32,138 nucleotides of DNA. Origin: a virus. Under the pieces are notes generated by a model. That model had not been told where the DNA came from and searched no databases. It saw only the letters and a program-made list of their open reading frames with translations. The DNA is taken from positions 1 to 32,138 of IMG/VR virus record IMGVR_UViG_3300049846_000900; one strand, written 5' to 3'. This document shows, in pieces, positions 5,832 through 22,555 of this stretch. How positions within the stretch are numbered: position 1 is the stretch's first letter; the number at the start of each line of letters is the position of its first letter. Made by a program: the position numbers and the translations under genes.

Positions 5832-5968
5832 GTTCATTACTCTCAGTCCCCACAGGATAAGGGACATTAAATATGCCTGTTGGTGCGGATGGGAATCTCT
5901 CCTGCCTGGTTTCCAATTACCAGTCAAAAAATTGGTGGTGGCGGGAAGCGACTATAAAACCAGATTTG

Positions 5969-5996
5969 AGGAGGTTGACAAATACCTCCTTTTTTT
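5969..5996 (+). terminator. Intrinsic terminator
   Basis: AGGAGGT (5969-5975) pairs with ACCTCCT (5984-5990), 7 bp with an 8-base loop, followed directly by six more T. It separates the early small-gene region from the sugar cluster. Confidence 0.8.
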
Positions 5997-6020: not shown

Positions 6021-7082
6021 ATGAATTCTATGAGTGAGTATAGGAAGACGGCACTTGTTCTTGGTGCTGGTGGTTTTATTGGAAGTCACATGGTAAAGAG
6101 ACTGCGATCTGAAGGATATTGGGTTCGCGGTGTTGATATTAAGTATCCGGAATTTTCTGAAACTGCTGCGAATGAATTTGTCCTTGGAGATCTTCGTGAT
6201 AAAGCACTTGTAGAACGAGTGATCCAGTTCAAAGGACATCTTGGCAATTTTTACAAATTCGTACCCTCAAAATATGTTGATACTTTTGATGAAATTTATC
6301 AGTTTGCTGCCGATATGGGTGGCGCTGGATTTGTATTTAGCGGCGAAAACGATGCTGAAATTATGCATAATTCTTGCGCAATCAATTTAAATGTTCTTGA
6401 GTCTGTTCGCGAATTGAATGATTTTAAGGGTGTAAATAAAACCAAAATCTTTTATTCTTCTTCCGCATGTGCTTATCCAGAGCATAATCAATTGGATCCT
6501 GCTAATCCTGATTGCAGAGAGGAGTCTGCGTATCCTGCTGCACCTGATTCTGAGTATGGATGGGAAAAACTATTCTCCGAGCGTATGTATTTCGCTTATC
6601 ATAGAAATCACGGCATTCCTGTTCGCGTTGCACGTTATCACAACATCTTTGGGCCAGAAGGGACCTGGCGAGGGGGGCGTGAGAAGGCACCTGCTGCCAT
6701 CTGTAGGAAGGTTGCTTATCTTCCCGCTGCCGGCGGTGCTGTGGAGGTCTGGGGCGATGGTAAACAGACCCGTTCGTTCCTATACGTGGATGAATGCGTA
6801 GAGGCAACTCGTAGATTGGTTGATTCTGATTTCATTGGACCAGTGAACATTGGATCAGAAGAAATGGTGACAATTAATGAACTGGTTGATATTGCTGCAA
6901 GAGTTGCTGGCAAAGATGTTCATAAGGTTCATATTAATGGTCCTCTTGGTGTTCGTGGTAGGAATTCTAATAATGATTTAATCCGCGAAAAATTGGGATG
7001 GGATTACTCTCAGACCCTGGAAGAGGGAATTCGTAAAACTTATAATTGGATTTCTGAGCAAACTAAAAAGGTTTTGGGTTGA
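6021..7082 (+). CDS. gme: GDP-mannose 3,5-epimerase-like SDR
   Basis: 353 residues, extended SDR. The NAD site GAGGFIGSH is at 15-23. The segment FAADMGGAGF (95-104) and the active-site features of plant GDP-mannose 3,5-epimerase are present at the expected spacing: SSSACAYPE with catalytic C150, Y179-x3-K183, and GTWRGGREKAPAA with R220 and K222. GDGKQTRSF and GPxGVRGRNSNN (with D/N) follow as in the plant enzymes. Those convert GDP-D-mannose to GDP-L-galactose or GDP-L-gulose. Ordinary 4-epimerases lack the catalytic Cys/Lys pair, so the assignment is fairly specific. It is the first gene of the sugar cluster. A second ATG at 6030 is possible. Confidence 0.85.
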   Translation: MNSMSEYRKTALVLGAGGFIGSHMVKRLRSEGYWVRGVDIKYPEFSETAANEFVLGDLRDKALVERVIQFKGHLGNFYKFVPSKYVDTFDEIYQFAADMGGAGFVFSGENDAEIMHNSCAINLNVLESVRELNDFKGVNKTKIFYSSSACAYPEHNQLDPANPDCREESAYPAAPDSEYGWEKLFSERMYFAYHRNHGIPVRVARYHNIFGPEGTWRGGREKAPAAICRKVAYLPAAGGAVEVWGDGKQTRSFLYVDECVEATRRLVDSDFIGPVNIGSEEMVTINELVDIAARVAGKDVHKVHINGPLGVRGRNSNNDLIREKLGWDYSQTLEEGIRKTYNWISEQTKKVLG

Positions 7083-7083
7083 T

Positions 7084-7935
7084 ATGAAAATTACTGTATT
7101 AGGATCTGCTGGACAGATTGGTGCATATCTTGTTGAGTATCTGCGTAAAAAGGGACATTATGTTTATGAGTTTGATCTTGTAAACAATCCTCATGAGGAC
7201 CTTAGGATGATTCCAAATCCTCTTTTGGAAGAACGAATTATGAATTCTGATTTTGTATTCTTTCTTGCATTTGATGTTGGCGGTTCTCGATATTTGAAGA
7301 AGTATCAACATACATTTCAATTCATTGACAACAACACTCGTATGATGGCAAATGTATTTGGACTTCTGGAAAAATATAAAAAGAGGTTTGTATTTGCATC
7401 ATCACAGATGAGTAATATGAGTTATTCTCCTTATGGGGTCATGAAGAGAGTTGGCGAACTCTATACCACAAACCTTAATGGATTGACTGTTAAGTTTTGG
7501 AATGTATATGGTATTGAAAAAGATCTCGAAAAATCACATGTAATTACTGATTTTATTCGTAGGGGATTTGAGGAGCGTCAGTTTGAAATGATGACCGATG
7601 GAACAGAGGAACGTCAGTTTTTATATGCTGAGGATTGTTGCGAAGGTCTAGAAACAATCATGGAAAATTATACTGACTTTAAACCAGAAGACCCTCTTCA
7701 CATCACATCATTCAGATCGACCTCCATCAAAGAAATTGCTGAACTTATTCAGGGGCAATTCAATTTGATTGGATACTATGATGTTAAGATCAAACCCGGA
7801 ATCGCTAAAGATAGTGTTCAAATGGACAAGAGAAATGAGGCAGACACTTACATAACTGGTTGGTGGTTGCCAAAAACTTCAATTGATAAGGGCATTGCAA
7901 AAGTCTTTGAGGAAATGAAACATGCTTGGGTTTAA
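7084..7935 (+). CDS. NAD-dependent epimerase/dehydratase (extended SDR)
   Basis: 283 residues. The nucleotide-binding motif is GSAGQIGAYL (7-16), the active-site segment is SSQMSN followed by Y-G-V-M-K (Y-x3-K), and the C-terminal nucleotide-sugar region contains EERQFLYAEDCCEG. It starts one base after the stop of the 3,5-epimerase-like gene and overlaps the GT11 gene by 14 bases. The substrate cannot be told; a GDP-sugar is suggested by its neighbours. Confidence 0.8.
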   Translation: MKITVLGSAGQIGAYLVEYLRKKGHYVYEFDLVNNPHEDLRMIPNPLLEERIMNSDFVFFLAFDVGGSRYLKKYQHTFQFIDNNTRMMANVFGLLEKYKKRFVFASSQMSNMSYSPYGVMKRVGELYTTNLNGLTVKFWNVYGIEKDLEKSHVITDFIRRGFEERQFEMMTDGTEERQFLYAEDCCEGLETIMENYTDFKPEDPLHITSFRSTSIKEIAELIQGQFNLIGYYDVKIKPGIAKDSVQMDKRNEADTYITGWWLPKTSIDKGIAKVFEEMKHAWV

Positions 7936-8776
7936 TAATATTGGACGAATGGGACGTTTGGGCAATCAGATGTTCCAATATGCTGCTCTGAAAGGAATTG
8001 CAGCACATCATGGATTTGATTATACTATTCCATCATATGACCCGAATCTTCAGATTGATAATTATGGTCTACTTGAGGCATTTGAACTTACCACAAATAA
8101 AAACGTTGCGTGGTTGAGAAATCAAAATGCTGTTCAAGAAAGGCATTATCACTTCGATCAGGAATTGTTTGATAATTGCCCAGATGATGTAAATATCAAT
8201 GGTTTCTTTCAATCTGAAAAATATTTTAAGCATGTTGAAGAAGATCTTCGTAAGGATTTTGTTTTTCGGGAAGAGTGGTTAGAACCATGTAAGGAATTCA
8301 TGAGTGAATTTGAGGGGCAAGAAGTTGCTTTCCTTCATGTTCGCCGGGGAGATCCTAATCTTGCAGACAAAAGGGGATTTAAGTGGGCATATGTGAATAT
8401 TCAAGACCAACATCCTGTGCAACCGCTTGAATATTATGAGGAAGCATTGAGGAGATTTCCTGAAGACATGCCAATTATTGTATTTTCTGATGCAATTGAT
8501 TGGTGTAAAGAGCAGGAATTTTTTGCTCCGGATAGGTTCTTCTTCTCAGAACCGGAGCATGTTTATGAAGATGGGGCTTTGGTTCCTTATGTGGATCTGT
8601 GCTTGATGTCTTTGTGTGATCATGCTATAATTGCTAATAGCAGTATGAGTTGGTGGGGGGCATGGTTGATCTCTAATCCAAATAAGAAAGTTATTGCGCC
8701 AAAAATGTGGTTTGGTCCTGCATATGCAGATAAGGACACTAAAGATTTAATACCGACTGAATGGGAGAGAATTTAA
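7922..8776 (+). CDS. GT11 glycosyltransferase (alpha-1,2-fucosyltransferase-like)
   Basis: 284 residues. The GT11 signatures are present: GRLGNQMFQYAALKGIA (11-27), the donor-binding HVRRGD (139-144) and the C-terminal NSSMSWWGAWL. Known members transfer L-fucose from GDP-fucose to galactose through an alpha-1,2 bond. Length is typical. It overlaps both neighbours. Because a GDP-L-galactose-forming enzyme is encoded just upstream, and L-fucose is 6-deoxy-L-galactose, the natural donor might be either sugar; that is inference. Confidence 0.88.
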   Translation: MLGFNNIGRMGRLGNQMFQYAALKGIAAHHGFDYTIPSYDPNLQIDNYGLLEAFELTTNKNVAWLRNQNAVQERHYHFDQELFDNCPDDVNINGFFQSEKYFKHVEEDLRKDFVFREEWLEPCKEFMSEFEGQEVAFLHVRRGDPNLADKRGFKWAYVNIQDQHPVQPLEYYEEALRRFPEDMPIIVFSDAIDWCKEQEFFAPDRFFFSEPEHVYEDGALVPYVDLCLMSLCDHAIIANSSMSWWGAWLISNPNKKVIAPKMWFGPAYADKDTKDLIPTEWERI

Positions 8777-9564
8777 TGGGATACTGCGAATGGAATGTTC
8801 CAGAACAAGATATTACTGATTATCTTGGATCATGTAAGAGATTTTGTAGAAATGATGTAGAATTTGATAATTTTAAACGCGATCGAGCATATCGTGTAAT
8901 TTTGGAGCACACTACTCGGCAGGGAGGACAAATCTTCATTAATCAAATGAAGAATGCATCTATCATTACTGATGAGCAACTTCAAAAAATCAAGCAGAAT
9001 GATCTTTACGGAAATCCAGAACTATTTTCGTATGATGTATTTGGAGAAATCTCCCCATCTACCTTAAGATATGTAAAGAATTCTTTGGATATTCTTGATT
9101 TTGTTGGGGATGAAGTTGGTGACATTGAAAATGTTGTTGAAATTGGTGGGGGATATGGTGGACTTTGTAGAGTGCTGAGTTCCTTTATTGATTTTGAAAA
9201 TTATGTTTTAATTGATCTTCCAGAGGTAAATCAACTTTCAGGAAAATATCTTGGAAAATTTTCAGATCTTGATGATAGAGTATCCCAACTATCCTGCTTT
9301 GAATTGGATGAGATTGTTGGTGCCGATCTTGTAATCAGTAACTATGCATTCTCCGAGTGTAGTGAAGAGATACAAATGCATTATTATAATGATGTGATTG
9401 CTAATGCCAATAGATTTTATATGGCATATAACAATTTCACGCATGGAAATATGAATTCTGATAGATTTATTGAGGTTGCATCTAAAGATTTTGAAATTGT
9501 AGTCGAGGATGATCGTTGCCCAACAGGTGCACCGAACGTTCTTCTTTATGGAGTTAGGAGGTAA
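8776..9564 (+). CDS. Putative sugar O-methyltransferase
   Basis: 262 residues from ATG 8776, which shares a base with the previous stop (TAATG) and has GGGAGAG upstream; an in-frame ATG at 8761 is the alternative. The SAM-binding motif is VVEIGGGYGGLCRVL, followed by the acidic strand LIDLPEVNQLS and the VISNYAFSECS motif. This pattern resembles the putative sugar O-methyltransferases found in polysaccharide clusters. It would methylate a sugar hydroxyl. The exact target is unknown. Confidence 0.75.
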   Translation: MGYCEWNVPEQDITDYLGSCKRFCRNDVEFDNFKRDRAYRVILEHTTRQGGQIFINQMKNASIITDEQLQKIKQNDLYGNPELFSYDVFGEISPSTLRYVKNSLDILDFVGDEVGDIENVVEIGGGYGGLCRVLSSFIDFENYVLIDLPEVNQLSGKYLGKFSDLDDRVSQLSCFELDEIVGADLVISNYAFSECSEEIQMHYYNDVIANANRFYMAYNNFTHGNMNSDRFIEVASKDFEIVVEDDRCPTGAPNVLLYGVRR

Positions 9565-9568
9565 TCTT

Positions 9569-9994
9569 GTGCATTTAGTATATTCAAAAGTACAAGAAGG
9601 TAGACTTCTTCATTTAATTAATCGGTTTGATGAAATTACCGAAAGAACTAATGTCGCTCCTGATAATGAGTTTCTTCAATTAGCAACTTTGAGAATGGAT
9701 GCGGGAAAAACATTTCGCCCTCACAAACACATTTGGAAAAATGTCCCTGGTGTGGATCAAGTGATCGCTCAAGAATCTTGGGTGGTGATTCAGGGATCTG
9801 TGAGAGTTCATATGTATGATCTTGATGATCAACTTCTTGAAAGTCAAATTCTAAATCGGGGGGATTGTTCCATGACGTTTGAGGGCGGTCATACATATGA
9901 TATTCTGGAAGATGATACTGTTGTGTATGAATACAAAACTGGACCCTATCAGGGAATTGAGTTTGATAAGGTATTTTTAAATGAAATTAGGTGA
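9569..9994 (+). CDS. Cupin-domain protein
   Basis: 141 residues from GTG 9569, chosen for its strong AGGAGGT ribosome-binding site. An in-frame upstream start would overlap the methyltransferase more deeply. It is a single cupin: the metal motif includes PHKH, then QESWVVIQGSVRVHMYD, with a second motif histidine in EGGHTYDI. In sugar clusters such cupins act as isomerases or epimerases (FdtA/WxcM or WbuC relatives). Which one applies here is not clear. It overlaps the acyltransferase gene by 14 bases. Confidence 0.7.
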   Translation: MHLVYSKVQEGRLLHLINRFDEITERTNVAPDNEFLQLATLRMDAGKTFRPHKHIWKNVPGVDQVIAQESWVVIQGSVRVHMYDLDDQLLESQILNRGDCSMTFEGGHTYDILEDDTVVYEYKTGPYQGIEFDKVFLNEIR

Positions 9995-10505
9995 AGATGT
10001 ATACATAAATGAATATGTAAATATCACTAGACCGGAACTTGTTGAGATTGGAAATCATGTTGCAATTGATTTTGGATTTGTGTGCACTACTGGTCTACGA
10101 ATAGGTGATTATGTGCATATATCTCCACACGTATCTGTAATTGGTGGAAAGAAGACCTTATTAAATATTGAGAGTTTTTGTTTCATATCAACCGGTGCAA
10201 GAATGATATGTGGTTCTGATCTTTTTCAGGGAGATGGTTTGATTGGTCCTATGATTCCAGATATGTATAAAGATAGTCAGATTTTAGAACCAATAAACTT
10301 GCGAAGATTCTCTGGAGTTTGTGCAAATTCTGTTGTTATGTCTGGAGTAACTATGGGAGAGGGGTCCGTTCTGGGAGCAAATTCATTTCTTAAAGAAGAT
10401 ACTGAACCTTGGACAATTTATGCAGGAAGTCCAGCTAGACCAATAAAATCACGAAAAAGTATACAAATGATTCAATATGCGCGGGAGTTAGGTTATGAGT
10501 TTTGA
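9981..10505 (+). CDS. Hexapeptide-repeat (LbH) acyltransferase
   Basis: 174 residues of left-handed beta-helix pattern, with I/V-G-x4 hexads such as VEIGNHVAIDFGFV and LRIGDYVHISPHVSVIGG, and the closing signature GVTMGEGSVLGANSFLKED followed by YAGSPARPI. These trimeric enzymes O- or N-acetylate sugars with acetyl-CoA. The likely catalytic histidine is in HISPH. Flanked by a cupin and a DegT-like gene, it suggests modification of an amino sugar. It overlaps the next gene by 11 bases. Confidence 0.82.
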   Translation: MKLGEDVYINEYVNITRPELVEIGNHVAIDFGFVCTTGLRIGDYVHISPHVSVIGGKKTLLNIESFCFISTGARMICGSDLFQGDGLIGPMIPDMYKDSQILEPINLRRFSGVCANSVVMSGVTMGEGSVLGANSFLKEDTEPWTIYAGSPARPIKSRKSIQMIQYARELGYEF

Positions 10506-11085
10506 TCCAGTCACAGAATTGGAGCAAAGAGTTGCAGAATTTTTTGGTGCTCCATATGCTCTAGCAGTTGATTCTTGCACTCATGCTTTGGAACTTTGTT
10601 TGAGGTATGAGGGATATAGTAAGGTCACTGTTCCCCCCAGAACTTACATTTCAGTTCCGTTTCTTCCTATGAAACTTGGAATTGAGTGGGAATGGCGTGA
10701 AGACAATTGGAAAGATTATTATTATCTTGGGCATACGAATATCATCGATGCTGCCGTTCTCTGGCAGAGAGATAGTTACATCCCAGGAACTTATATGTGC
10801 TTGAGTTTTCAATTCCAGAAACATCTGAGTCTTGGTAGAGGTGGAATGATTCTTTTGGATAATGAAGAAGCACGACAATATTTGGAACCTTTCTCATATG
10901 ATGGTAGAATGAGAGGGACTCCCTGGAGACAGCAGGACATTAAGATGTTGGGACATCACTATTATATGACACCAGAAACTGCTGAATTGGGTCTGCAGAA
11001 ATTGCCAGCAGCGATTGCAACAGAACCTAGGCGATGGGACATTTCTGATTATCCTGATCTAAGAAACATGGAGGCATTTAAGTGA
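10495..11085 (+). CDS. Half-length DegT/DnrJ/EryC1-like PLP aminotransferase
   Basis: 196 residues against about 370 in the family. The N-terminus has FFGAPYALAVDSCTHALEL (cofactor-phosphate region). The D-A-A of the ring-nitrogen aspartate is at D85, and the probable Schiff-base lysine K109 lies in SFQFQKHLSLGRGGM, followed by the glycine turn. The inter-domain insert is shortened and most of the C-terminal domain is missing, but there is no frameshift visible and the gene is coupled to both neighbours (GTGA overlap with gmd). It may be a compact active aminotransferase on a 4-keto-6-deoxy sugar, or a degenerate one. Confidence 0.75.
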   Translation: MSFDPVTELEQRVAEFFGAPYALAVDSCTHALELCLRYEGYSKVTVPPRTYISVPFLPMKLGIEWEWREDNWKDYYYLGHTNIIDAAVLWQRDSYIPGTYMCLSFQFQKHLSLGRGGMILLDNEEARQYLEPFSYDGRMRGTPWRQQDIKMLGHHYYMTPETAELGLQKLPAAIATEPRRWDISDYPDLRNMEAFK

Positions 11086-12047
11086 AAAGAGCATTAATTA
11101 CTGGAATTACTGGACAAGATGGATCATATCTTGCTGAGTATCTTTTGGATCTTGGATATGAAGTTCATGGTATTGTTCGTCGTCAATCTGTGGCAGAAAA
11201 TCAAAGTTCGCGACTTCAGGAGATTGATCAACGCATAACAAGGCATTATGGGGATCTTTTAGATGAGCATTCTTTGTATAGTGTTATAAAAAAGGTTCAA
11301 CCAGATGAGATCTATAATCTCGCCGCGATGAGTCATGTGCGAGTTAGTTTTGATGTTCCATCCTTTACAATCAAAACAAATTCTCTTGGTGTTTTGAATA
11401 TACTTGAAGCATATCGTAATGTTGTGCCAGAGGCAAAGTTTTATCAGGCAAGTTCATCTGAGATGTTTGGCAATTCTGTCGATGAAGATGGATGCCAAAG
11501 ATTGACAACTGTGATGAGTCCTGTCAGTCCATATGGATGCTCCAAAGTGATGGGATATAATCTCACACGCCATTATCGCAATGCATATAAACTTCATGCT
11601 TGTAATGGCATCCTCTTTAATCACGAATCTCCACGTAGAGGAACTAACTTTGTAACTCATAAAGTTGTGAAGGGTGCCGTTGAGATTAAGAAAGGTCTTC
11701 GTGATAAACTGGAAATGGGGAATATGGATTCCAGTCGTGATTGGGGACATTCTTATGATTATGTTCGTGCTATGCATCTCCTTCTGAATCATGAGATTCC
11801 TAGGGATTGGATTGTTGCAACTGGAGAAACTAGAACAGTTAGAGAGTTGTGTGATTATGTGTTTACTTCCTTGGGACTTAATTATCAGGATCATGTTGTT
11901 CAGAATCCAATTTATATGAGAGCTGAAGAACTTAAGTATCTTCGTGGCGATTCTCATGAAATTCGTGAGACTCTTGGATGGGAACCAAAGTATACTTTCA
12001 ATAGTATGATTGATGAAATGATCGAGGTGTGGCTAAATAAGGTGTAG
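11082..12047 (+). CDS. gmd: GDP-mannose 4,6-dehydratase
   Basis: 321 residues from GTG 11082 (GGAGG upstream, 4-base overlap with the previous gene). It converts GDP-D-mannose to GDP-4-keto-6-deoxy-D-mannose, the precursor of GDP-L-fucose, GDP-rhamnose and GDP-perosamine. Family marks: GITGQDGSYLAEYL at 8-21, the arginine-rich IVRRQS, the active site S125-S-E127-MFG and Y151-G-C-S-K155, and FNHESPRRG. Length is slightly below the usual 340-370, losing some C-terminal residues. The position after the DegT-like gene suggests shared use of its product. Confidence 0.92.
   Translation: MKRALITGITGQDGSYLAEYLLDLGYEVHGIVRRQSVAENQSSRLQEIDQRITRHYGDLLDEHSLYSVIKKVQPDEIYNLAAMSHVRVSFDVPSFTIKTNSLGVLNILEAYRNVVPEAKFYQASSSEMFGNSVDEDGCQRLTTVMSPVSPYGCSKVMGYNLTRHYRNAYKLHACNGILFNHESPRRGTNFVTHKVVKGAVEIKKGLRDKLEMGNMDSSRDWGHSYDYVRAMHLLLNHEIPRDWIVATGETRTVRELCDYVFTSLGLNYQDHVVQNPIYMRAEELKYLRGDSHEIRETLGWEPKYTFNSMIDEMIEVWLNKV
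12033..12039 (+). promoter_or_regulatory. Late-promoter-like CTAAATA box
   Basis: CTAAATA box inside the end of gmd, 23 bases before ATG 12063. It could refresh late transcription of the twin fucosyltransferase-like genes. Confidence 0.3.
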
Positions 12048-12062
12048 TCATCACCAATAAGG

Positions 12063-12848
12063 ATGAATATTTTACTCGATGTTGGGGCAGCGGGTATATT
12101 CAGTAAAGTGATGTTTGCCATTCAAAATTTAGTAAAATATAATCCCCAAAATGCATATGTAAATTGCAGTGACGACAACGCCAATATAATCTATACAAAT
12201 CCGTTTGATTATGTTTTTGTTCAACCCAAGGTTGACAATACATATCAGCGGTATTTTGCACAAGGAATGAGCTCTTACACTTACAGAAATAAAATCGAAG
12301 AATCTGCATTATTTCAATCATATAAACATTGGGCTCAAAGGTTTATTTTTACTGATGATTTAGAACAATTGATCTGTGAGCATAAGCGTTTAGTTTTTCA
12401 TAATACAATTGGGGTCCATGTTAGATTGACAGACATGAATGTGCTTCATAAAATCTATGGAGTATATAATATTGATCACTATTTGCACCTATCAGAATCT
12501 TTATTATTAAAATCAGATGCTAAGTTATTTGTAGCGTCTGATAATAATGAATCGTTGCATAGATTCAAAAGTGAATTTGGTGAACGAGTTGGGTATGTGC
12601 CAAATATGTTGAGATGTGAATATGATAATGGCAATTCCACACAACTCCAATATGACTATATTCACAGGAAAAGATTTTGGTTGGAAGCATTTTTGGAAAT
12701 GTGTCTTTTAAGTAGATGTGATACTATTGTTTGTAGAACATCTAATCTTCCAAATGTGGCAAAGATATTTTCCAAAAAGAAGCAAAACTATATTTGGTTG
12801 CCACAATTGGCGACATGGGACTGGAAGGAAAAACGGAGACCTAGATAG
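12063..12848 (+). CDS. Fucosyltransferase-superfamily protein, copy 1 of tandem pair
   Basis: 261 residues. The central GVHVRLTDM (117-125) matches the GDP-binding motif of GT-B fucosyltransferases (GT23/NodZ and GT65/68 relatives). It is followed by KLFVASDNNES and the helix EAFLEMCLLSRCDTIVCRTSNLPN, where GT23 proteins have a similar acceptor-side motif. It is shorter than NodZ. It is clearly paralogous to the next gene. The donor is probably GDP-fucose or a close GDP-sugar; the acceptor is unknown. The end is basic (KEKRRPR). Confidence 0.65.
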   Translation: MNILLDVGAAGIFSKVMFAIQNLVKYNPQNAYVNCSDDNANIIYTNPFDYVFVQPKVDNTYQRYFAQGMSSYTYRNKIEESALFQSYKHWAQRFIFTDDLEQLICEHKRLVFHNTIGVHVRLTDMNVLHKIYGVYNIDHYLHLSESLLLKSDAKLFVASDNNESLHRFKSEFGERVGYVPNMLRCEYDNGNSTQLQYDYIHRKRFWLEAFLEMCLLSRCDTIVCRTSNLPNVAKIFSKKKQNYIWLPQLATWDWKEKRRPR

Positions 12849-12858
12849 ACATCTTGCC

Positions 12859-12866
12859 AATAAATA
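12859..12866 (+). promoter_or_regulatory. Late-promoter box AATAAATA between the tandem paralogs
   Basis: NATAAATA box in the 42-base gap, 25 bases before ATG 12891. It is one of the few non-overlapping junctions in the cluster. Confidence 0.5.
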
Positions 12867-12890
12867 ATTACCGCCAAATATCCTAAGCAT

Positions 12891-13685
12891 ATGAATATTA
12901 TACTGGATATAGATGCAGGCGGAGTATTCAGTAAAATGATGTTCGTGGTTCAAAATCTATCAAATTTGACATATGAGAATGCTTATTTAAATTGTGTTGA
13001 TAATAGGGCAAATTGTTTTGGGAATCCATTTGATTATATTTTTCAGCAACCAAGTTTTGATTGGGATGAGTGTGAACGAATTCCTGCAAGAGGATATTGC
13101 ACACATACTCATTTAGACCCTATAGAAAATGCGTTTCTATTTGGAAAATATAAGGACATTGTTAAACAATATCCATTTACTGATGAGATGCAAAATTACA
13201 TAGATCAGTATAAACATCTCATTTCTACCCCAACAATAGGGATTCATGTTAGAATGACTGATATGCATATTGAGCATCCGAAGCATGGGATATATACGAT
13301 CGATCATTATCTGAAAATAGTGGAATACTATAGTTCATTATCTGAATGGGAGAATTCAAATATATTTGTTGCATCGGATAATAAAGAAAGTATCTATAGA
13401 TTCGTTGATAAATTTGGAGATAGAGTTCGATACGTTGATAATTTGATGAGAGCGGAGAGTGCGAATGAGAATAGTATTAAAATGCAACTTTTAAATTTTC
13501 CAACAAAAAAATGGTGGATGGAGGCATTTCTAGAAATGTATCTTTTGAGTATGTGTAATTTGCTTATTTGTAGATCTTCCAATCTGACAAATGTGGCAAA
13601 AATATACTCAGACGGAACACAGGAGTGGGTTTGGATGCCTCAGGATGGTGCAATTTTTTGGCAGAAACTTTTTGCATATAATTAA
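12891..13685 (+). CDS. Fucosyltransferase-superfamily protein, copy 2 of tandem pair
   Basis: 264 residues, aligned end to end with the preceding gene: MNIILDI(D) start, FSKMMFVVQNL, GIHVRMTDM at 117-125, IFVASDNKES, EAFLEMYLLSMCNLLICRSSNLTN. The two have diverged strongly, so the duplication is old or both were imported. The GT-B fucosyltransferase fold is inferred from the HVR-x-TD motif. It has its own late box. Substrate specificity may differ from copy 1. Confidence 0.65.
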   Translation: MNIILDIDAGGVFSKMMFVVQNLSNLTYENAYLNCVDNRANCFGNPFDYIFQQPSFDWDECERIPARGYCTHTHLDPIENAFLFGKYKDIVKQYPFTDEMQNYIDQYKHLISTPTIGIHVRMTDMHIEHPKHGIYTIDHYLKIVEYYSSLSEWENSNIFVASDNKESIYRFVDKFGDRVRYVDNLMRAESANENSIKMQLLNFPTKKWWMEAFLEMYLLSMCNLLICRSSNLTNVAKIYSDGTQEWVWMPQDGAIFWQKLFAYN

Positions 13686-13708
13686 GTAATAAACTATGGT
13701 GTTTGATT

Positions 13709-14581
13709 ATGATTGGATTTGATGAACTTGGTAGAAAGGGATGGTTGGGAAACACTATGTTCCAATATGCAGCTCTGAAGGGCATTGCGGCATATCATGG
13801 ATATACTTATTGCGTACCACCAAATGACAGCACCAGAGTGTCGAATTACTTATTACACGATGTCTTTAAACTTCATGATGTAAAACATCTTGGGTATATT
13901 GGGCATCCTACATATAAGCACAGATCGTCAGACGATCCCTGTCATTCTACAACATTTTATTTTAATCAAGAGTTTATGGATGAGTGTCCGGATGGAGTGA
14001 GTATTTGTGGATTCTTTCAATCCGAAAAATGGTTTAAACATATAGAAGATGATGTTCGTAAAGATTTTGAATTTGTAGATGAAATTTTTGATGAATGTAA
14101 GTCATTAATTGAGTCTTTTGATAATGCACCAATATTTCTTCATGTTAGACGCGGTGATTATGTAAAACGACCACAGTATCATTATAATTTGACACTGGAT
14201 TATTTTGGCGAAGCATTAACTCACTTTGATGATGATATTCCAGTTTTGATATTTTCGGATGATATTGATTGGTGTAAACAACAAAGCGCGTTTGATCCAG
14301 ATAGGTTTTATTTCTCAGAAACTGATGATAGAATGCCAATAAATTCTTGGTTGACTAATCAAGGATATGAGCAAAGTGCATTGATCCCATATAATGACTT
14401 GTGCTTGATGTCTCTATGTAATGGTGGTATAATTAGTAATAGTTCATTTAGTTGGTGGGGTGCTTGGCTGCAGAGAAATAGGACAAGACCTATTGTATGC
14501 CCAAATAAAGATAAGTGGGGTGGACCACTAAACACTCTTGATCATTCAGATGTATGTCCCGATTCTTGGATTAAATTGTAA
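13709..14581 (+). CDS. Second GT11 glycosyltransferase (alpha-1,2-fucosyltransferase-like)
   Basis: 290 residues from ATG 13709 (TTG 13703 is the in-frame alternative). GT11 marks: LGNTMFQYAALKGIA (13-27), HVRRGD (145-150), NSSFSWWGAWL near the end. It is paralogous to the gene at 7922, sharing FQYAALKGIAA and GFFQSEK. The stop overlaps the next start by one base. Two GT11 enzymes suggest two different fucose-type linkages or acceptors. Confidence 0.87.
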   Translation: MIGFDELGRKGWLGNTMFQYAALKGIAAYHGYTYCVPPNDSTRVSNYLLHDVFKLHDVKHLGYIGHPTYKHRSSDDPCHSTTFYFNQEFMDECPDGVSICGFFQSEKWFKHIEDDVRKDFEFVDEIFDECKSLIESFDNAPIFLHVRRGDYVKRPQYHYNLTLDYFGEALTHFDDDIPVLIFSDDIDWCKQQSAFDPDRFYFSETDDRMPINSWLTNQGYEQSALIPYNDLCLMSLCNGGIISNSSFSWWGAWLQRNRTRPIVCPNKDKWGGPLNTLDHSDVCPDSWIKL

Positions 14582-15441
14582 TGAAAATATTAATCACAGG
14601 TCATAAAGGATTTGTAGGAAAATACTTTATGATGAAGTATGCAGATCATGATATTGTTGGAGTTGACTTAAAAGAAGGAAATGATTGCAGAGACTTCTTT
14701 AAAACTTCTAACGACAGGTTTGATTTAGTGGTTCATCTTGCAGCAATTGTTGGTGGAAGGCAGACCATAGATAAAGATCCACTATCAGTCGCGACAGATC
14801 TATCGATCGATTCTGAGATGTGCAACTGGGCACTCAGAACAAAACCTGGGAGAATAGTATACTTCTCATCCTCTGCTGCATATCCAACCAAACTTCAAGT
14901 TGGAAAGTATCAGTTGACTGAGGATGATATTGATCTTTCAAATGTAAGTAATCCGGACATGACTTATGGATGGGCAAAACTTACTGGAGAATTTTTGTTG
15001 CAGTTTCTGAGTGCTGAGGGAATTAAGACTCACGTATTCAGACCTTTTAGTGGATATGGAACGGATCAGGATTTGGATTATCCATTCCCATCCTATATTG
15101 CTAGAGCAGATAGGTTGATGAACCCCTTTGATATTTGGGGTGATGGGAATCAGGTTCGAGATTTTATTCATATACGCGATATTGTCGATGCCGTTGACGA
15201 TGCAATCAAGTTGGATATTACAGTTCCTGTAAATCTTGGATCTGGAGTGGCAACATCATTCAACGAACTATGTGATCTTGTCTGTAGCGTTCGTGGATAT
15301 TCACCAGAAGTAAATCATATTTTGGATGCCCCGGTGGGAGTTCAGTATAGAGTATCTAATAACAGTAGAATGTTGAGTTTTTATACACCAAAGATTTCTT
15401 TGGAGGAAGGTATTAGAATGGCATTAAGAGGGGAGATTTGA
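14581..15441 (+). CDS. NAD-dependent nucleotide-sugar epimerase/reductase
   Basis: 286-residue extended SDR. The N-terminal motif is TGHKGFVGKYF (6-16). It has HLAAIVGGRQ, SSSAAYP and the Y-G-W-A-K catalytic pair, then GDGNQVRDFIHIRD. The HLAA-x-VGG motif is shared with GDP-L-fucose synthases, but the cysteine those enzymes have before the -YP- is alanine here (AAYP). GDP-fucose synthase is therefore possible but not supported. It could be the reductase or epimerase completing the Gmd pathway. Confidence 0.78.
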   Translation: MKILITGHKGFVGKYFMMKYADHDIVGVDLKEGNDCRDFFKTSNDRFDLVVHLAAIVGGRQTIDKDPLSVATDLSIDSEMCNWALRTKPGRIVYFSSSAAYPTKLQVGKYQLTEDDIDLSNVSNPDMTYGWAKLTGEFLLQFLSAEGIKTHVFRPFSGYGTDQDLDYPFPSYIARADRLMNPFDIWGDGNQVRDFIHIRDIVDAVDDAIKLDITVPVNLGSGVATSFNELCDLVCSVRGYSPEVNHILDAPVGVQYRVSNNSRMLSFYTPKISLEEGIRMALRGEI

Positions 15442-15443
15442 TT

Positions 15444-16142
15444 GTGAAAATTTGTATTCTTACTATTGCAACTAATAAGTATTTGCAATTTGTTGAAAAA
15501 CTCTATGATGATATTGCAGAGAAGTTTATTCCGGAAGCAGAAATAAATTGCTTGCTTTTTACGGATCATGAAATTGAGGAGACATCTGATAATGTTCGTG
15601 TTCATTATATTGACCATGAACCATGGCCAATGCCAACTCTAAAAAGGTATAATTACTTTGTGAAAGAAAGGGATTATATTCTTCAGCATGATTATTGCTT
15701 CTACTTTGATGCTGACATGAGAATTGATAATCCAGTCGGCACCGAAGTTCTTGCTGATGGCGTGGTTGCAACTCAGCACCCATATCAATCATTTCATAGT
15801 ATTATGGATATGTCTTATGATAGAAATCCAAAGTCTCTTGCATATGTTGCACCCGGTGATGGAAATACTTATTATGCGGGTGGATTTAATGGAGGAAGAA
15901 CCAAAGAGTTTATTGAAATGTCAGAGGTGATTGCTGAGCGAGTGAATAGAGATCTTGAGAACGGTGTTGTTGCCCTTTGGCACGATGAGTCTCACATGAA
16001 TAGATATTTGATTGATAATCCTCCGGCGAAGAGTCTAACCCCTTCATATTGTTGGGCAGAAGAATTCTATAACAATCCAAATTATCCATACGAACCAAAG
16101 ATCATTGCACTTCAGAAGAATCATAAGGAATTGAGAACATGA
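15444..16142 (+). CDS. GT6 glycosyltransferase (ABO blood-group transferase homologue)
   Basis: 232 residues from GTG 15444, chosen because GGGGAG lies 8 bases upstream (TTG 15438 is too close). It reads as the catalytic domain of GT6: PWPMPTLKRY, then the D89-A-D91 metal motif in YFDADMRI, YYAGGFNGG (A145-G146-G147, the donor-selecting position), ALWHDESHMNRYL with nucleophile-position E182, and PSYCW. Animal members are the A and B blood-group transferases, which add alpha-1,3 GalNAc or Gal to fucosylated galactose. It has no membrane anchor, as in bacterial members. From memory, many bacterial GT6 proteins carry NxN in place of DxD; here DxD is kept. Confidence 0.88.
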   Translation: MKICILTIATNKYLQFVEKLYDDIAEKFIPEAEINCLLFTDHEIEETSDNVRVHYIDHEPWPMPTLKRYNYFVKERDYILQHDYCFYFDADMRIDNPVGTEVLADGVVATQHPYQSFHSIMDMSYDRNPKSLAYVAPGDGNTYYAGGFNGGRTKEFIEMSEVIAERVNRDLENGVVALWHDESHMNRYLIDNPPAKSLTPSYCWAEEFYNNPNYPYEPKIIALQKNHKELRT

Positions 16143-16777
16143 AATTGAAATTGACAGAACTGCCAGTTCTCTATATCAATCTGGATAGAGATGTTGAACG
16201 TAGGCGGAGAATGGAAGATATTCTGGATGCGTTGAATTTTAAGAATGTAACTAGGGTTGCTGCAACTGAAACTGAAATTGGTAAGGTTGGATGTGCTATT
16301 TCTCATGCTGAAGCACTTGGTATGATTGAACCTCCATTCATTTTATTAGAAGATGATTGCATTCCGCTTTCGTTTTATGATGAGATTGAGATTCCCGATG
16401 ATGCCGATGCTCTATACCTTGGAGTGTCCTCCTGGGGAAGGATGAATTCTCATTCCGGCCCATTTAATCAATATGAGAGGATTGACAGGAATCTGCTTAG
16501 GATCTATAATATGGTTGGTGCACATGCCATTCTATACCTTTCAAAGGATTATACATCACTCTGCAAGAGAATTGCGGAGCATGGGTATAAAATTGAAGAT
16601 CATCATGATATAGGATTTGCTGAGGTTCAAAAATATTTTAATGTATACTCTGTTGACGATCCGATGTTCTTCCAGACAAGTTCTCTGGAAGCAACTAATC
16701 AGAAATTGACTTCATATCCTACTGATGAATGTTATATGTTTAATAGAAGATATTGGTTGCCGTTGAGGACAAATTGA
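16139..16777 (+). CDS. GT25 family glycosyltransferase
   Basis: 212 residues. GT25 (LPS beta-galactosyltransferase LgtB/LpsA type) pattern: LYINLDRDVERRRRMEDIL (11-29), GCAISHAEALGMI and the acidic LLEDDCIP. The second half is divergent. It starts in the stop of the GT6 gene (ATGA overlap) and ends in the next gene's start. It probably adds galactose or a related sugar from a UDP donor. The sugar is inferred from family only. Confidence 0.8.
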   Translation: MKLKLTELPVLYINLDRDVERRRRMEDILDALNFKNVTRVAATETEIGKVGCAISHAEALGMIEPPFILLEDDCIPLSFYDEIEIPDDADALYLGVSSWGRMNSHSGPFNQYERIDRNLLRIYNMVGAHAILYLSKDYTSLCKRIAEHGYKIEDHHDIGFAEVQKYFNVYSVDDPMFFQTSSLEATNQKLTSYPTDECYMFNRRYWLPLRTN

Positions 16778-17676
16778 TGGAACAGAAATTAAAAACATTG
16801 GTCACTGGAGGATGTGGGTTTATAGGATCAAATCTTGTAGATCTATTAGTGGATAGTGGGCATGAAGTCGTAGTCATAGACAATCTTTCTTCCAAGGGAA
16901 CTCCACATTTTAATAAAAATGCAACATATGTTATAGAGGATCTTACTGAGTATGATAGGGTTCAGCACTTATTTGAAGGTGTTGACTGTGTTTATCATAT
17001 GGCATCCGAGGTTTCTATTCAATATTGCGTTGAATATCCAAATGAGTCGATGCGCAATAACGTTCTATCGACAACAAATGCCCTAGAGGCATCACGTAGT
17101 CATGGGGTAAAACGGTTTGTATTCTCTTCAACTTCAGCAGTTTACGGGAACAGTCTTTTCCTTCCCAGCATAGAAACAAACACTGCAGATTGCTTTAATA
17201 CATATTCCATCTCCAAATATACTGGAGAGCAGTTGTGTAAAATGTATTATGAACTATACGGAATGGAAACAATCACCTTCCGTTATTTTAACGTATATGG
17301 AAATCGTCAACCATCTCAGGGTCAATATGCTCCGGTGATGGGAATTTTTAGAAGGCAAAAGGAAGAGGGTAAACCATTGACAATTGTTGGAGAAGGATTC
17401 CAGACAAGGGATTTTGTGAATGTCTCCGATGTTGTTAGAGCAAATCTTCAAGCGGCAACAGTTCTTTTGAATAAGTATGGTGAAGTTTATAATGTTGGAA
17501 CTGGCGAGTCTGTAGCAATTGAGCATATTGCTAGAATGATCTCTGATTATCAAATTCATCTTCCTCCCAGGATTGGTGAGGTGTTGCATTCCAGAGCAGA
17601 CATTGGTAAAATTAAAAAGGACTTTGGTTGGGAACCTACTATTAGATTGGGAGATTGGTTGAGTGAAAACATTTAA
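16777..17676 (+). CDS. UDP-glucose/GlcNAc 4-epimerase-like SDR
   Basis: 299 residues from ATG 16777 (GAGG about 10 bases upstream). It is a classic GalE/WbpP-like layout: TGGCGFIGSNLVDLL (11-25), DNLSSKG, SSTSAVYG, Y-S-I-S-K catalytic pair, FRYFNVYGNRQ, FVNVSDVV, YNVGTGES. It would interconvert UDP-Glc/UDP-Gal or the N-acetyl forms, giving donors to the GT6 and GT25 enzymes beside it. The substrate cannot be fixed from motifs. Confidence 0.85.
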   Translation: MEQKLKTLVTGGCGFIGSNLVDLLVDSGHEVVVIDNLSSKGTPHFNKNATYVIEDLTEYDRVQHLFEGVDCVYHMASEVSIQYCVEYPNESMRNNVLSTTNALEASRSHGVKRFVFSSTSAVYGNSLFLPSIETNTADCFNTYSISKYTGEQLCKMYYELYGMETITFRYFNVYGNRQPSQGQYAPVMGIFRRQKEEGKPLTIVGEGFQTRDFVNVSDVVRANLQAATVLLNKYGEVYNVGTGESVAIEHIARMISDYQIHLPPRIGEVLHSRADIGKIKKDFGWEPTIRLGDWLSENI

Positions 17677-18610
17677 AAAAGCAGTTGTATGGGGGCATAA
17701 GATCGGAACTCATACGCATTCTTATGTGCATTTTGGGTATTGGAGAGCTCTTCAAGAACTTGGATATGAAACCGAATGGTTTGATAATAATGATGATGTC
17801 AGTGGAGTTGATTTTTCGGACACGGTTTTCATCACAGAAAATAGTGTAAGTCAGAATATGCCAATTAGATCGGATTGTGCATATTTTGATCATTTCTCTG
17901 ATCTGCCATTTGAGATTACATCTGAGCGCAGCGAGGCAAGAGTAACTCATCCGCATTATTATAATTTTGTATTCTTTTCTGATCGTTGGATTCCTGAGTG
18001 GAACGTTAAGTGGCCACATGACATGGAATTGACCTACTTAAGTCAGCATCATTATTTTCATGAGTATACAAAAACATTAACTACAATGTGGGCAACTGAT
18101 TTGCTTCCAGGTGAGATTGATGAGATTGAACCAAAATTATTTGATGAGAATGCCGAACACATCTTTTTTGTTGGCACTCCACAAGGAGCAAATATTAAGA
18201 GGTTTGAGCAGATTTGCAATTCTCACAATAAACATTTTATGAATGTTGGAGGATGGAATGCAATCAATGCAAATGTTGAGTATGATATCAATCTGAACAT
18301 TGATCTGGTCAGACAATCATTTATTTCAGTTGACATTCGGGATGAACCCCATTTAAGAATGGGTCGTTATTATCCTTGCAGACTATTCAAAAATATCAGT
18401 TATGGAAGATGGACGGGATCAAATCATGAAGGGATTGAAGACGTTTTTGGACCACACTTCACTTGTCATTCAGATCTGGAGGTACTCTACGATCGTCTTG
18501 TAGAAGACTCTAGAAATTGTACAGAGGCAAAATTGCGTGATGCGATGAATTTTGTTCGCGATCATCACACATATGTAAATCGAATTCAAGATATGTTTAG
18601 GGTATTATGA
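17663..18610 (+). CDS. Glycosyltransferase-like protein (GT-B type, tentative)
   Basis: 315 residues from GTG 17663, overlapping the epimerase by 14 bases. The N-terminus resembles a GT-B nucleotide-binding half (VVWGHKIGTHTHSYVHFGYW). The C-terminal part (GRYYPCRLFKNISYGRWTGSNH, then HSDLEVLYDRLVED) resembles the donor-side end of glycan-processing GT-B proteins. No specific family is recognised. It pairs with the similarly organised gene that follows; function inferred from context. Confidence 0.55.
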   Translation: MKTFKKAVVWGHKIGTHTHSYVHFGYWRALQELGYETEWFDNNDDVSGVDFSDTVFITENSVSQNMPIRSDCAYFDHFSDLPFEITSERSEARVTHPHYYNFVFFSDRWIPEWNVKWPHDMELTYLSQHHYFHEYTKTLTTMWATDLLPGEIDEIEPKLFDENAEHIFFVGTPQGANIKRFEQICNSHNKHFMNVGGWNAINANVEYDINLNIDLVRQSFISVDIRDEPHLRMGRYYPCRLFKNISYGRWTGSNHEGIEDVFGPHFTCHSDLEVLYDRLVEDSRNCTEAKLRDAMNFVRDHHTYVNRIQDMFRVL

Positions 18611-19641
18611 GGGTTTTGCATCTATCGCATCATTATGGATGCCTAAAGGATCATCAGTATATTGCTCATGAATTGGGATTTGAAATCGAATCTCAATTTT
18701 CTCATTGGGATGAGAGACTTCCATATGATTCGTATAGGATGAGTGAAGATCTTGCCAATCAAATTTGGGAAGATAACAAAGACTACTTTAATCAGTTTGA
18801 TTATGTGATCACCAGCGACACGGCACCCATTTCTAGAATCTTCCTACAGAATTTTGATGAATTTCGTGGAAGATTGAATATTTGGGTGTCAAATCGATTT
18901 GACTATGTGATGGATGGTGATGTTGGATATTATAATCTCTTTCGCGGTGCTTTAGAACTAGATAGAGTTAAGATTATTCCATACACCGAATTTGAAAGGG
19001 TGTGGATGCAGCGGTTTAATATTTACTGTGAGTATGAAACAATTAGACCTATCGGAAAAACCATAGCAAATCCACTGTCTGAAAAGGATGTTTATGAAAA
19101 TCTAGTTGGATTTAGTGGCGATCATCATAACGATTTAATCGACAAAGGTATTTGTGGAGATGTTTTAGTATCACGATATCACAACGACAATATCTTTCAA
19201 GATAGTAAAGAGATTTGCGAAGAATATGGTTTAATTGCTGCTCATGCAAAATATCGGGGAGCAGAAGAGTTGAAGATTCTATCTAAAAACTTTTCCTGCT
19301 TCTTGATGCATCCAGATGCGTATTCAAAATTTACTGCATTTGAATTGATGCAACTTGAAATGCCCGTTATTTTGCCAAGCGAAGAACTTTTCTTCAGTAT
19401 GTCTAGAATGCCTAGATACTTCTTCAGCACAGGAGTAACATCAGATACTGTTCAATTTGTTGAATGGTATAATGAATACTATTCACAATATGCAGTTTAT
19501 TTTGATGATCACTCTCAAATTAAAGAGTGTGTAGAAATTGTGAAGGAGAATAGAAATGAAATTTGTGCTATAATGAGAGAATGCTCTGAACAACACACAA
19601 CGAAAACCTTAGATCAGTGGAGAAAAGTATATGACATCTGA
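18607..19641 (+). CDS. Glycosyltransferase-like protein (GT4-like C-terminus)
   Basis: 344 residues, overlapping the previous gene by 4 bases (ATGA). It begins MRVLHLSHHYGC, typical of GT-B enzymes. Near the C-terminus is FTAFELMQLEMPVILP, which matches the donor-binding E-x7-E-like helix and the following strand of GT4-type enzymes (usual form G-x-x-x-x-E-A-x-x-x-G-x-P-V). The donor is unknown. It overlaps the methyltransferase gene by 11 bases. Confidence 0.6.
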   Translation: MRVLHLSHHYGCLKDHQYIAHELGFEIESQFSHWDERLPYDSYRMSEDLANQIWEDNKDYFNQFDYVITSDTAPISRIFLQNFDEFRGRLNIWVSNRFDYVMDGDVGYYNLFRGALELDRVKIIPYTEFERVWMQRFNIYCEYETIRPIGKTIANPLSEKDVYENLVGFSGDHHNDLIDKGICGDVLVSRYHNDNIFQDSKEICEEYGLIAAHAKYRGAEELKILSKNFSCFLMHPDAYSKFTAFELMQLEMPVILPSEELFFSMSRMPRYFFSTGVTSDTVQFVEWYNEYYSQYAVYFDDHSQIKECVEIVKENRNEICAIMRECSEQHTTKTLDQWRKVYDI

Positions 19642-20350: not shown

Positions 20351-21060
20351 TGTTTAAGATTTTTACAGCAGCAGTAAATAATCCATTTTTCTTGCTTGTT
20401 CAAGCAGTTAATTTTCAGAGATTTCTAAAGTGTGATTATGAATTTTGTGTTCTGGATGATGCAAAGCAAGAGGAGGTAATCTTCGGACTTCAGGACATTG
20501 CTAGAGATCAGCACGTAAAATACATTCCATATCCCCATAGAAATCCCACAGTGGGATCCCCATCGACTGATAGTGTAATCCAGTGGGCATGGGATAATAT
20601 TATCACTAAGGAATGCCAAGATGATTTAGTCTTTTTCTTGGATTCTGACATGTTTTTAATGGAATCTTTTGATCCATATGAGTTTATGGGGGATTATCCT
20701 ATTTCTGCCAGTCTTTCGCAGAGAGGACATGTTAGGTATATCTGGAATGGAATCATGTTCTTTGACATGAAGCAAGTATTAAAAATGAATGGAAATCTTA
20801 ATTTCAATCTTGGCAACATTGAGGGGGAAATGTGTGATAGTGGTGGACACACCTATTATTTCCTTAAAGAAAATAATGTTCGGGTGAAAGAATTAGAACC
20901 CACTTTTGGAGGACTTTATAGGGGAATAGAATTACTGAATATGGAGCATTTTATTGATGGAAAGTTTCTTCACTTTAGAGGGGGATCTCTATGGGATGGA
21001 AAAGTTGACCTATATAATCAGAAGATGAAAGTCCTTGATACGATTCTTAAGACTCTGTGA
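20350..21060 (+). CDS. DxD-type (GT-A) glycosyltransferase-like protein
   Basis: 236 residues from ATG 20350, sharing one base with the previous stop. The mid-protein acidic motif VFFLDSDMFLM (D-S-D) is a GT-A metal/donor site. NGIMFFDMKQ and a late HFRGGSLWDG follow at acceptor-side positions. It does not fit a named family by eye. It starts MFKIFTAAVNNPFFL, with no signal peptide. Confidence 0.6.
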   Translation: MFKIFTAAVNNPFFLLVQAVNFQRFLKCDYEFCVLDDAKQEEVIFGLQDIARDQHVKYIPYPHRNPTVGSPSTDSVIQWAWDNIITKECQDDLVFFLDSDMFLMESFDPYEFMGDYPISASLSQRGHVRYIWNGIMFFDMKQVLKMNGNLNFNLGNIEGEMCDSGGHTYYFLKENNVRVKELEPTFGGLYRGIELLNMEHFIDGKFLHFRGGSLWDGKVDLYNQKMKVLDTILKTL

Positions 21061-21857
21061 ACAACATTATGGATAAAAATAAATCAGTTTATAAATTGCG
21101 TAATTTTGGTCCCATTTATTTGATCAATCTTGATGGTCAACCAGATCGTTGGGAATATATGGAGGATCAGTTTAAGTATTGGGAATTGGAGGATTATACT
21201 AGAATTTCTGCCTATGATGGGCGCGAAGATGATCTTAGTGATATTATTAAGGGTAGATATCCGGAAGCAGTATCTTCTGGAGAGATTGGATGTGTAACGT
21301 CCCATCTAAAGGCAATTAAGCATTGGTATGAAACTTCTGATAGTCCATATGCAATCATTATGGAAGATGATTGCAACATTGACATTGCTAGATACTGGAA
21401 CTTTACCTGGACGGATGTAATCTCTAGAGTTCCTTATGATTGGGATGTGTTACAGTTGGCAATTATTTGCACTGGAGATCTGCACGTTCATTTGCATAAG
21501 AGATTTGTGAACGACTTTTCTACAGCATGTTATGTAATTACTAGGCATCATGCAGAAAAGATGCTTAGACTTCATGTTCGTGGCGATAAGTATAAACTTG
21601 ATAATGGTGTAAAACCACGTGCCGTTGCGGATGACCTGCTTTATAATTCTGGGAATACTTATAGTATGCCCCTCTTCCTCTATAAAATAGAGTTGGGATC
21701 TTCTATTCATCCAGAACATATTAATGCGTTTCATAGACAATCGCATGACGGACTGTTGGATTTTTGGACACAAATGGGAGCTCAGACGGATATTTCTAAA
21801 CTTATGGATTATAATCCATTCCTGGGACGTGTTACGGAACCATCACAAACAACATAA
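21057..21857 (+). CDS. GT25 family glycosyltransferase, second copy
   Basis: 266 residues from GTG 21057 (GTGA overlap; ATG 21069 is an alternative). GT25 marks: IYLINLDGQPDRWEYM (20-35), EIGCVTSHLKAIKHW, IIMEDDCNI. It is more complete than the gene at 16139 and diverged from it. It is the last gene of the sugar cluster; after its stop come about 95 bases with promoter signals for the outer-membrane gene. Confidence 0.82.
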   Translation: MNNIMDKNKSVYKLRNFGPIYLINLDGQPDRWEYMEDQFKYWELEDYTRISAYDGREDDLSDIIKGRYPEAVSSGEIGCVTSHLKAIKHWYETSDSPYAIIMEDDCNIDIARYWNFTWTDVISRVPYDWDVLQLAIICTGDLHVHLHKRFVNDFSTACYVITRHHAEKMLRLHVRGDKYKLDNGVKPRAVADDLLYNSGNTYSMPLFLYKIELGSSIHPEHINAFHRQSHDGLLDFWTQMGAQTDISKLMDYNPFLGRVTEPSQTT

Positions 21858-22532: not shown

Positions 22533-22555
22533 GGGGGATTCTTCCCCCTTTTTTT
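22533..22555 (+). terminator. Intrinsic terminator after the OMP gene
   Basis: GGGGGA (22533-22538) pairs with TCCCCC (22543-22548) around TTCT, followed by seven T (22549-22555). A classic strong terminator. Confidence 0.9.

Follow-up and report, generated by a model that had tools for sequence, protein, structure and literature searches.

Does a phage gene for a GT6 glycosyltransferase, lying in one cluster with two GT11 genes, belong to a pathway that makes a glycan of the blood-group A/B type? We analysed this question on a virus record of 32,138 nucleotides (IMG/VR record IMGVR_UViG_3300049846_000900), and the whole of this 32-kb stretch is referred to as the window. The record is very probably that of a marine cyanomyovirus (Kyanoviridae type), as its gnd shares 73-75% identity with cyanomyovirus genes, six genes for tRNAs (Val, Ser, Pro, Ile, Met, and Leu, at 153-4329) lie 5' of the sugar cluster, and the nearest GT6 proteins among named phages are those of P-SSM2 and its relatives (66-68% identity). 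The proximity of cyanophage LPS clusters to tRNAs was noted earlier (PMC3037559).

Our preferred reading, to which we give a probability of about one half, is that the gene set of this cyanomyovirus remodels a host surface glycan to a branched trisaccharide of the blood-group A/B type. In the first step, a GT25-type transferase would add a terminal beta-galactose. In the second, a GT11 enzyme would use a GDP-sugar to attach a deoxy-sugar, most likely L-fucose, in alpha-1,2 linkage. In the third, the GT6 enzyme would link GalNAc (or Gal) alpha-1,3 to the same galactose. We infer both this order of enzyme action and the host surface as the target.

The sugar cluster comprises about 16 kb (about 6021 to 21857), and its genes overlap or are closely spaced (Table 1). 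It runs from GME through the gene at 7084-7935, a GT11, the O-methyltransferase, the cupin/hexapeptide/aminotransferase trio, and gmd to two FUT8-like genes, the other GT11, the GFS-like gene, GT6, the GT25-type gene, GalE, several genes that match no Pfam family, and a GT25 gene. The GT6, the two GT11 genes, gmd, and the GalE-like gene, which the sequence-only reading had placed in one strand-consistent cluster, were all confirmed there on the plus strand. That reading had not mentioned the GME, the tandem fucosyltransferase-like genes at 12063-13685, or the GT25-type gene behind GT6, nor that a canonical GDP-L-fucose synthase is missing. In a promoter scan of the window, sites were no commoner than in shuffles. 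A sister contig, L006, is collinear with the window for about 21 kb, with a nucleotide identity of 75-83%. Further 3' in the window, we observed an S-adenosylhomocysteine hydrolase gene (22574-23830) with matches in three phage records only, none of them from a cyanophage, the best being to a human faecal phage contig (51%). A lysis-type block (23853-26622) contains a C39-like peptidase and a phage lysozyme on the plus strand and an M23 peptidase and a staphylococcal-nuclease homologue on the minus strand. A very long open frame (29047-32136) with near-identical repeats (TQLNVSGVSTL..., VTDLKATQTTITGVSTLG...) runs off the window end, and its product is probably a tail-fibre-like protein.

Table 1 Features of the sugar cluster and its borders in the window
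Feature	Position	Strand	Basis
Terminator-like hairpin and T-run, just 5' of the cluster	5968..5991	+	consensus scan only
GME, GDP-mannose 3,5-epimerase	6021..7082	+	phmmer to Arabidopsis GME 2c59, E 5.8e-85
NAD-dependent epimerase/dehydratase family gene	7084..7935	+	PF01370, E 2e-23
Second GT11	7922..8776	+	PF01531, E 1.2e-19; HVRRGD
Putative sugar O-methyltransferase	8761..9564	+	TIGR04371, 59.8 bits (cut-off 44)
WbuC-like cupin, hexapeptide acyltransferase, short DegT-type aminotransferase	9509..11085	+	TIGR04366, PF00132, PF01041
gmd, GDP-mannose 4,6-dehydratase, 321 aa	11082..12047	+	PF16363, E 1.5e-111
Tandem relative of the 12891..13685 gene, HVRLTD	12063..12848	+	250 bits with HMM from the 12891 gene
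Divergent fucosyltransferase-superfamily gene, HVRMTD	12891..13685	+	weak FUT8 match, phrog_2644, motif
GT11 (alpha-1,2-fucosyltransferase type), nearest GT11 to GT6	13709..14581	+	PF01531, E 4.9e-21; HVRRGD
GFS/GME-like short-chain dehydrogenase	14581..15441	+	alignment to 7ll6
GT6 glycosyltransferase, 232 aa	15444..16142	+	PF03414, E 4.3e-34; AlphaFold model; dN/dS
GT25-type glycosyltransferase, putative galactosyltransferase	16139..16777	+	family PF01755 matches; structure model
GalE-like nucleotide-sugar 4-epimerase	16753..17676	+	4zrm, E 2.4e-54; WbpP 1sb8, 9e-37
GT25 glycosyltransferase, cluster end	21057..21857	+	PF01755, E 1.2e-12
Strong terminator-like hairpin, 3' of the last cluster gene and one more gene	22533..22548	+	consensus scan only

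Among the cluster genes, none matched a Pfam family of initiating transferases, flippases, polymerases, or ligases. Hence, the set would modify a glycan built by the host or by other phage genes. The lack of flippase, ligase, and polymerase matches would also suit a glycan placed on the phage's own virion; the capsids of chloroviruses are known to be glycosylated, and tail-fibre-like genes lie a few kb 3' of the cluster. However, we found no link of the cluster to any structural gene, and host LPS is the usual reading of such cyanophage genes (PMC9602691), so that we consider a virion glycan improbable. A role of the glycan set on the virion or in superinfection, which the sequence-only reading had considered, is speculation.

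GT6 gene and donor site: The GT6 protein matches PF03414 with 118 bits (cut-off 25), and its gene starts with a GTG at 15444, where the ATG of the P-SSM2 homologue aligns. The antisense ORFs across the gene, of 78 and 77 aa, are short and resemble shadow ORFs. With NCBIfam NF041524, the protein scored 197.9 bits, under the threshold of 250, and is related to that subfamily but outside it. All motifs that had been read from the sequence are present: DAD (residues 89-91), YYAGGF (143-148), and WHDESH (179-184). The AlphaFold model (pLDDT 91.8) is closest in Foldseek to BoGT6a (4cj8; TM 0.93, 1.9 Å), and human GTA/GTB, with which a structural comparison had been proposed, are the next-best match (TM about 0.9); by model comparison, the fold is GT-A of the ABO/alpha3GT type. 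In BoGT6a, Tyr13, Arg73, Asn95/Ala96, Glu192, and Lys231 contact UDP-GalNAc (PMC3961637), and the alignment maps these contacts to Y13, R68, D89/A90, E182, and K225 of the phage enzyme. DAD 89-91 and E182 align with the DxD and Glu303 of GTA, and E182 is the predicted catalytic Glu. The AGG donor triplet is identical to that of BoGT6a, and the donor-selecting positions 266/268 are occupied by small residues (A145/G147). BoGT6a is a characterised GalNAc transferase with 2'-fucosyl-lactose as acceptor (PMC3961637). The suggestion that the small Ala-Gly-Gly leaves room for GalNAc is thus supported in that the donor site is GalNAc-compatible, and GalNAc would be the donor, although a call from a three-residue motif is weak and the QGC lineage of GT6 described below shows that the site varies. 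The C-terminal KNHxxxR equals KNHQAVR of human GTA. As the phage enzyme, unlike BoGT6a, combines DAD with this vertebrate-like motif, metal dependence is expected. As a member of the GT6 family, the phage enzyme is a putative retaining alpha-1,3 Gal/GalNAc transferase.

Acceptor site: Tyr114-Gln115 stands at the position of Gly235-Phe236 of GTA in the alignment, and Tyr114 is also found in P-SSM2. Among 112 non-redundant viral GT6 proteins, the acceptor motif is HPYQS in 56 and HPGF in 22. The substitution may change the acceptor, and the claim that the GT6 acceptor is exactly Fuc-alpha-1,2-Gal was too strong, as the pocket residue at GTA 235 is Tyr and not Gly/Ser; we retain a fucosylated galactose as the presumed acceptor. 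The altered pocket at GTA positions 235-236 also suits another explanation, in which GT6 and GT11 are both parts of a general cluster for surface polysaccharide and work on unrelated acceptors, so that the alpha-1,3 GT6 needs no fucosylated galactose. The related alpha3GT acts on unfucosylated Gal. In addition, the cluster holds many other transferases, so that any two families would co-occur, and the GT6 is nearer in gene order to the GT25-type gene than to a GT11.

The distribution of the two families bears on this explanation. In the phage collection, GT6 occurs in 71 records and GT11 in 103. All 16 named cyanophages with GT6, a count that leaves out two GT6 records labelled 'Bacteriophage sp.', also have GT11: P-SSM2, P-SSM5, AG-345-E02, -E15, and -F15, DSL-LC02, DSL-LC03, SynMITS9220M01, S-CAM9, S-8S53, S-8S55, S-8S56, S-PRM1, Bellamy, B23, and ACG-2014f. 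Conversely, at least 17 named cyanophages have GT11 without GT6. GT11 is far from universal: of the records with the name Synechococcus phage or Cyanophage, 434 carry a T4-type baseplate gene. For IMG/VR, we admitted loci in which GT6 is flanked by 8 kb or more upstream and 4 kb or more downstream (n = 82, or 55 after dereplication). GT11 lies within 10 kb of GT6 in 73 of the 82 and in 49 of the 55, these being raw counts that ignore shared ancestry. When the whole contig is considered, 79 of the 82 have a GT11, which covers six of the nine exceptions to the 10-kb rule. Only three large phage contigs (L130, L131, and L133) carry GT6 with no GT11 anywhere, as does one cyanobacterial genome (G281), and these cases favour unrelated acceptors. 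GT11 may be upstream or downstream of GT6, adjacent or up to 8 kb off, and hence a single frozen gene order does not by itself account for the coupling. Both genes share a strand in 154 of 154 cases (the window may be counted twice), but this is weak evidence since whole clusters sit on one strand. GT11 is also near 25 of 46 bacterial GT6 loci.

This one-way pattern is what is expected if GT6 acts on the GT11 product. The coupling of GT6 to a GT11 partner across viruses is much stronger than one window could show, and the finding that GT6 viruses almost always have GT11 suggests a working pathway rather than filler DNA. Given the one-way dependence in all named cyanophages, the bacterial loci, and the adjoining GT6 and GT11 of the QGC lineage, we regard unrelated acceptors as possible but rather doubtful.

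GT6 lineages: By their donor triplets, the phage GT6 proteins form two lineages, AGG and QGC; in a quick ML tree of 113 sequences, the two are not grouped with each other. Both are paired with GT11, and in the QGC lineage GT6 and GT11 are side by side in most isolates. Some contigs have both lineages in tandem (L072 and L073, 10001-11427, AGG then QGC/QGS), which suggests two different terminal sugars from one virus. As to origin, we found no picocyanobacterial host source of the phage GT6. In a scan of bacterial genomes, the 80 best loci reached at most 46% identity, in a Bacillota MAG, and Moorena and two Melainabacteria/Gastranaerophilales MAGs were the sole cyanobacterial names among them. 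GT6 was found in 11 of 386 cyanobacterial-phylum genomes, several of them like Gastranaerophilales. One of the 11 is a 2.3 Mb single-contig genome (locus L225) with a GT6 of 42% identity; this gene (5242-5997; DAD, triplet QNC) lies directly 3' of a secA-like gene, and no GT11 was found in that genome.

GT11 and related genes: The two GT11 proteins of the window are 50% identical to each other and match PF01531 with 71-76 bits (cut-off 23.9), and HVRRGD in both is of the HxRRxD type. By these features, they are putative fucosyltransferases that would transfer from GDP-L-Fuc to galactose. The GT11 family also includes an alpha-1,3 enzyme, HhFT2 (PMC4202792). Between gmd and the nearest GT11 to GT6, we observed two divergent FUT8/NodZ-like genes in tandem, both with HVRxTD (12063-13685). 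The second gene matches FUT8 with E 7.4e-6, under the cut-off, and phrog_2644 with E 2.4e-7; L006 has one such copy only, 48% identical to the second copy of the window.

Sugar supply: The gmd product scored 364 bits with TIGR01472 (cut-off 415). The GFS/GME-like gene directly 5' of GT6 was the sole candidate near GT6 for a GDP-L-fucose synthase, and it was rejected as a canonical one. Compared with 7ll6, it has SSA for SSC and YPFPS for SHV.P and retains YxxxK, so that the epimerase Cys (now Ala) and His of GFS are both missing; the product is probably a 4-reductase or 4-epimerase, to judge from these residues. The gene at 7084-7935 is more distant still and was also rejected. In the 32-kb window, which is part of a phage genome, no canonical GDP-L-fucose synthase with epimerase Cys and His was found. 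The parts list for fucose proposed by the sequence-only reading is therefore incomplete in the window: either the synthase comes from the host or other phage genes, or L-galactose takes the place of L-fucose.

The latter alternative holds that the GT11 enzymes use GDP-L-galactose, one step from the phage GME, which gives an L-galactose analogue of the A antigen. Characterised relatives of GME make GDP-L-galactose/L-gulose, and the window GME is intact, with its SSSACAYP and REKAP catalytic motifs, and is also kept in L006. Plant alpha-1,2-fucosyltransferases take GDP-L-Gal if GDP-Fuc is lacking. In 8 of the 82 GT6/GT11 loci, the flanks contain GME but neither gmd nor GFS, and in SynMITS9220M01 GME is directly 5' of GT11-GT6. 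On the other side, gmd is present and conserved, which points to a 6-deoxy sugar, and the synthase may come from elsewhere, GFS-like genes being common in cyanobacteria. Moreover, gmd and GDP-fucose synthase occur together within the 10-kb flanks of 38 of the 82 viral GT6 loci, and Cys and His are retained in 48 of 65 synthase-like proteins tested. We therefore consider the L-galactose alternative unlikely. The full chain, in which GME makes GDP-L-galactose, GT11 places L-galactose on galactose, and the GT6 with its Tyr235 pocket caps it with GalNAc, is a little less likely again. It could also be that gmd feeds another 6-deoxy or amino sugar via the aminotransferase trio. For the third step of the blood-group-type pathway, UDP-Gal/UDP-GalNAc might be supplied by the GalE-like gene, the product of which has the UDP-glucose 4-epimerase 4zrm as best PDB match.

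GT25-type gene: The gene directly behind GT6, the start of which overlaps the GT6 stop, would be the galactosyltransferase of the first step. Its protein has no PF01755 match, but 21 of 40 relatives match (best E 3.1e-6). For the model (pLDDT 95.9), the closest structures are COLGALT1, mimivirus R655, and a bacterial beta-1,4-GalT, all weak matches with TM about 0.5, and the protein is likely a GT25 enzyme. Of the 55 dereplicated viral loci, 35 have a GT25-type gene immediately 3' of a GT6. We infer that this gene could make the acceptor galactose, a first step missing from the pathway as first proposed. In the trio, the WbuC-like cupin scored 37 bits with TIGR04366, under the cut-off, and the DegT-type aminotransferase is unusually short (196 aa).

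Selection: Comparison of the window with L006 gave dN/dS values of 0.03-0.10 for the main enzymes and most cluster genes; as dS is about 1 or higher and thus near saturation, the ratios are rough. The values are 0.037 for GT6, 0.048 for the GT11 at 7922-8776, 0.10 for the GT11 at 13709-14581, 0.094 for the GT25-type gene, 0.043 for gmd, and 0.092 for GME. The trio (0.07-0.09) is kept in L006 under purifying selection as well, and hence the short aminotransferase is not a decaying fragment. A paper of 2010 left open whether cyanophage LPS genes are functional or fill the capsid and raised the possibility that such clusters are non-functional 'stuffer DNA' in the head of large-genome phages; it is to LPS clusters that large cyanophage genomes owe most of their extra size (PMC3037559). 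The highly variable gene content would fit this possibility. However, the strong purifying selection argues against it, as do the open frames and the retained active sites. The selection result largely refutes the stuffer reading, and we consider it very unlikely for this cluster. Together, the one-way GT6 dependence, the repeated pairing in two lineages, and the purifying selection point to a real pathway.

As gene content, the set is not new. The sequence-only reading was right that a GT6 has been noted in a Prochlorococcus phage, since P-SSM2 has an annotated one, and by 2014 GT6 had been noted in two cyanophages (PMC3961637). No description of the combined set was known to the sequence-only reading, but P-SSM2 and ACG-2014f have the same GT11/GT6/gmd/epimerase set in their annotation, GenBank naming GT6 and GT11 for both, and the GT11-GT6 set is found in P-SSM2 and 15 other named cyanophages. 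A comparison of 2010 reported that seven LPS genes including T4-GC 260, 265, and 266 co-occur in three phages (PMC3037559); by annotation, these three are the GT11, epimerase, and GT25 of P-SSM2. In the freely accessible literature that we searched, no paper was found that reads the cyanophage set, P-SSM2 included, as an A/B-antigen pathway. New are the one-way GT6-GT11 pattern, the GT25-type neighbour, the two GT6 lineages with GT11, and the strong purifying selection. Blood-group reagents or mass spectrometry could be used to look for the predicted product. If the pathway is real, viruses of very abundant ocean phototrophs share a type of terminal sugar structure with animals and some gut bacteria, with consequences for marine phage-host recognition.

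Among known systems, the LPS cluster of P-SSM2 (AY939844, PSSM2_257-271) is the closest, with a GT6 67% identical to that of the window. Like the window, it has gmd, a GFS-type epimerase, GT11, GT6, a GT25-type gene, an epimerase, and GT25 on one strand; it differs in its single GT11 (two in the window), in that the GFS-type epimerase is present, and in that no GME or FUT8-like genes were found in its flanks. In cyanophage S-SCSM1, a single block holds gmd, GFS, GME, an alpha-1,2-fucosyltransferase, and additional fucosyltransferases (PMC9602691), without a GT6. BoGT6a, the histo-blood-group-A synthase of Bacteroides ovatus (4ayj, 4cj8), shares fold, AGG, and donor and catalytic residues with the phage GT6 at about 33% identity, but it has NAN and is metal-independent, whereas the phage enzyme has DAD as in vertebrates, and the acceptor region reads HPGF in BoGT6a and HPYQ in the phage enzyme. 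Human GTA/GTB share the fold (TMq 0.9), DxD, WHDESH, and the C-terminal KNHxxxR at about 27% identity; the phage enzyme has no membrane anchor or stem, and it has Ala at 266 (human Leu/Met) and Tyr at 235 (human Gly/Ser). The E. coli O86 O-antigen system differs in its bacterial chromosomal location and its Gal donor, and it is likened here by gene set and not by sequence: there, the GT6 WbnI and an alpha-1,2-fucosyltransferase produce a B-type epitope on a glycan of the bacterial surface (PMC4202792, PMC4982269).
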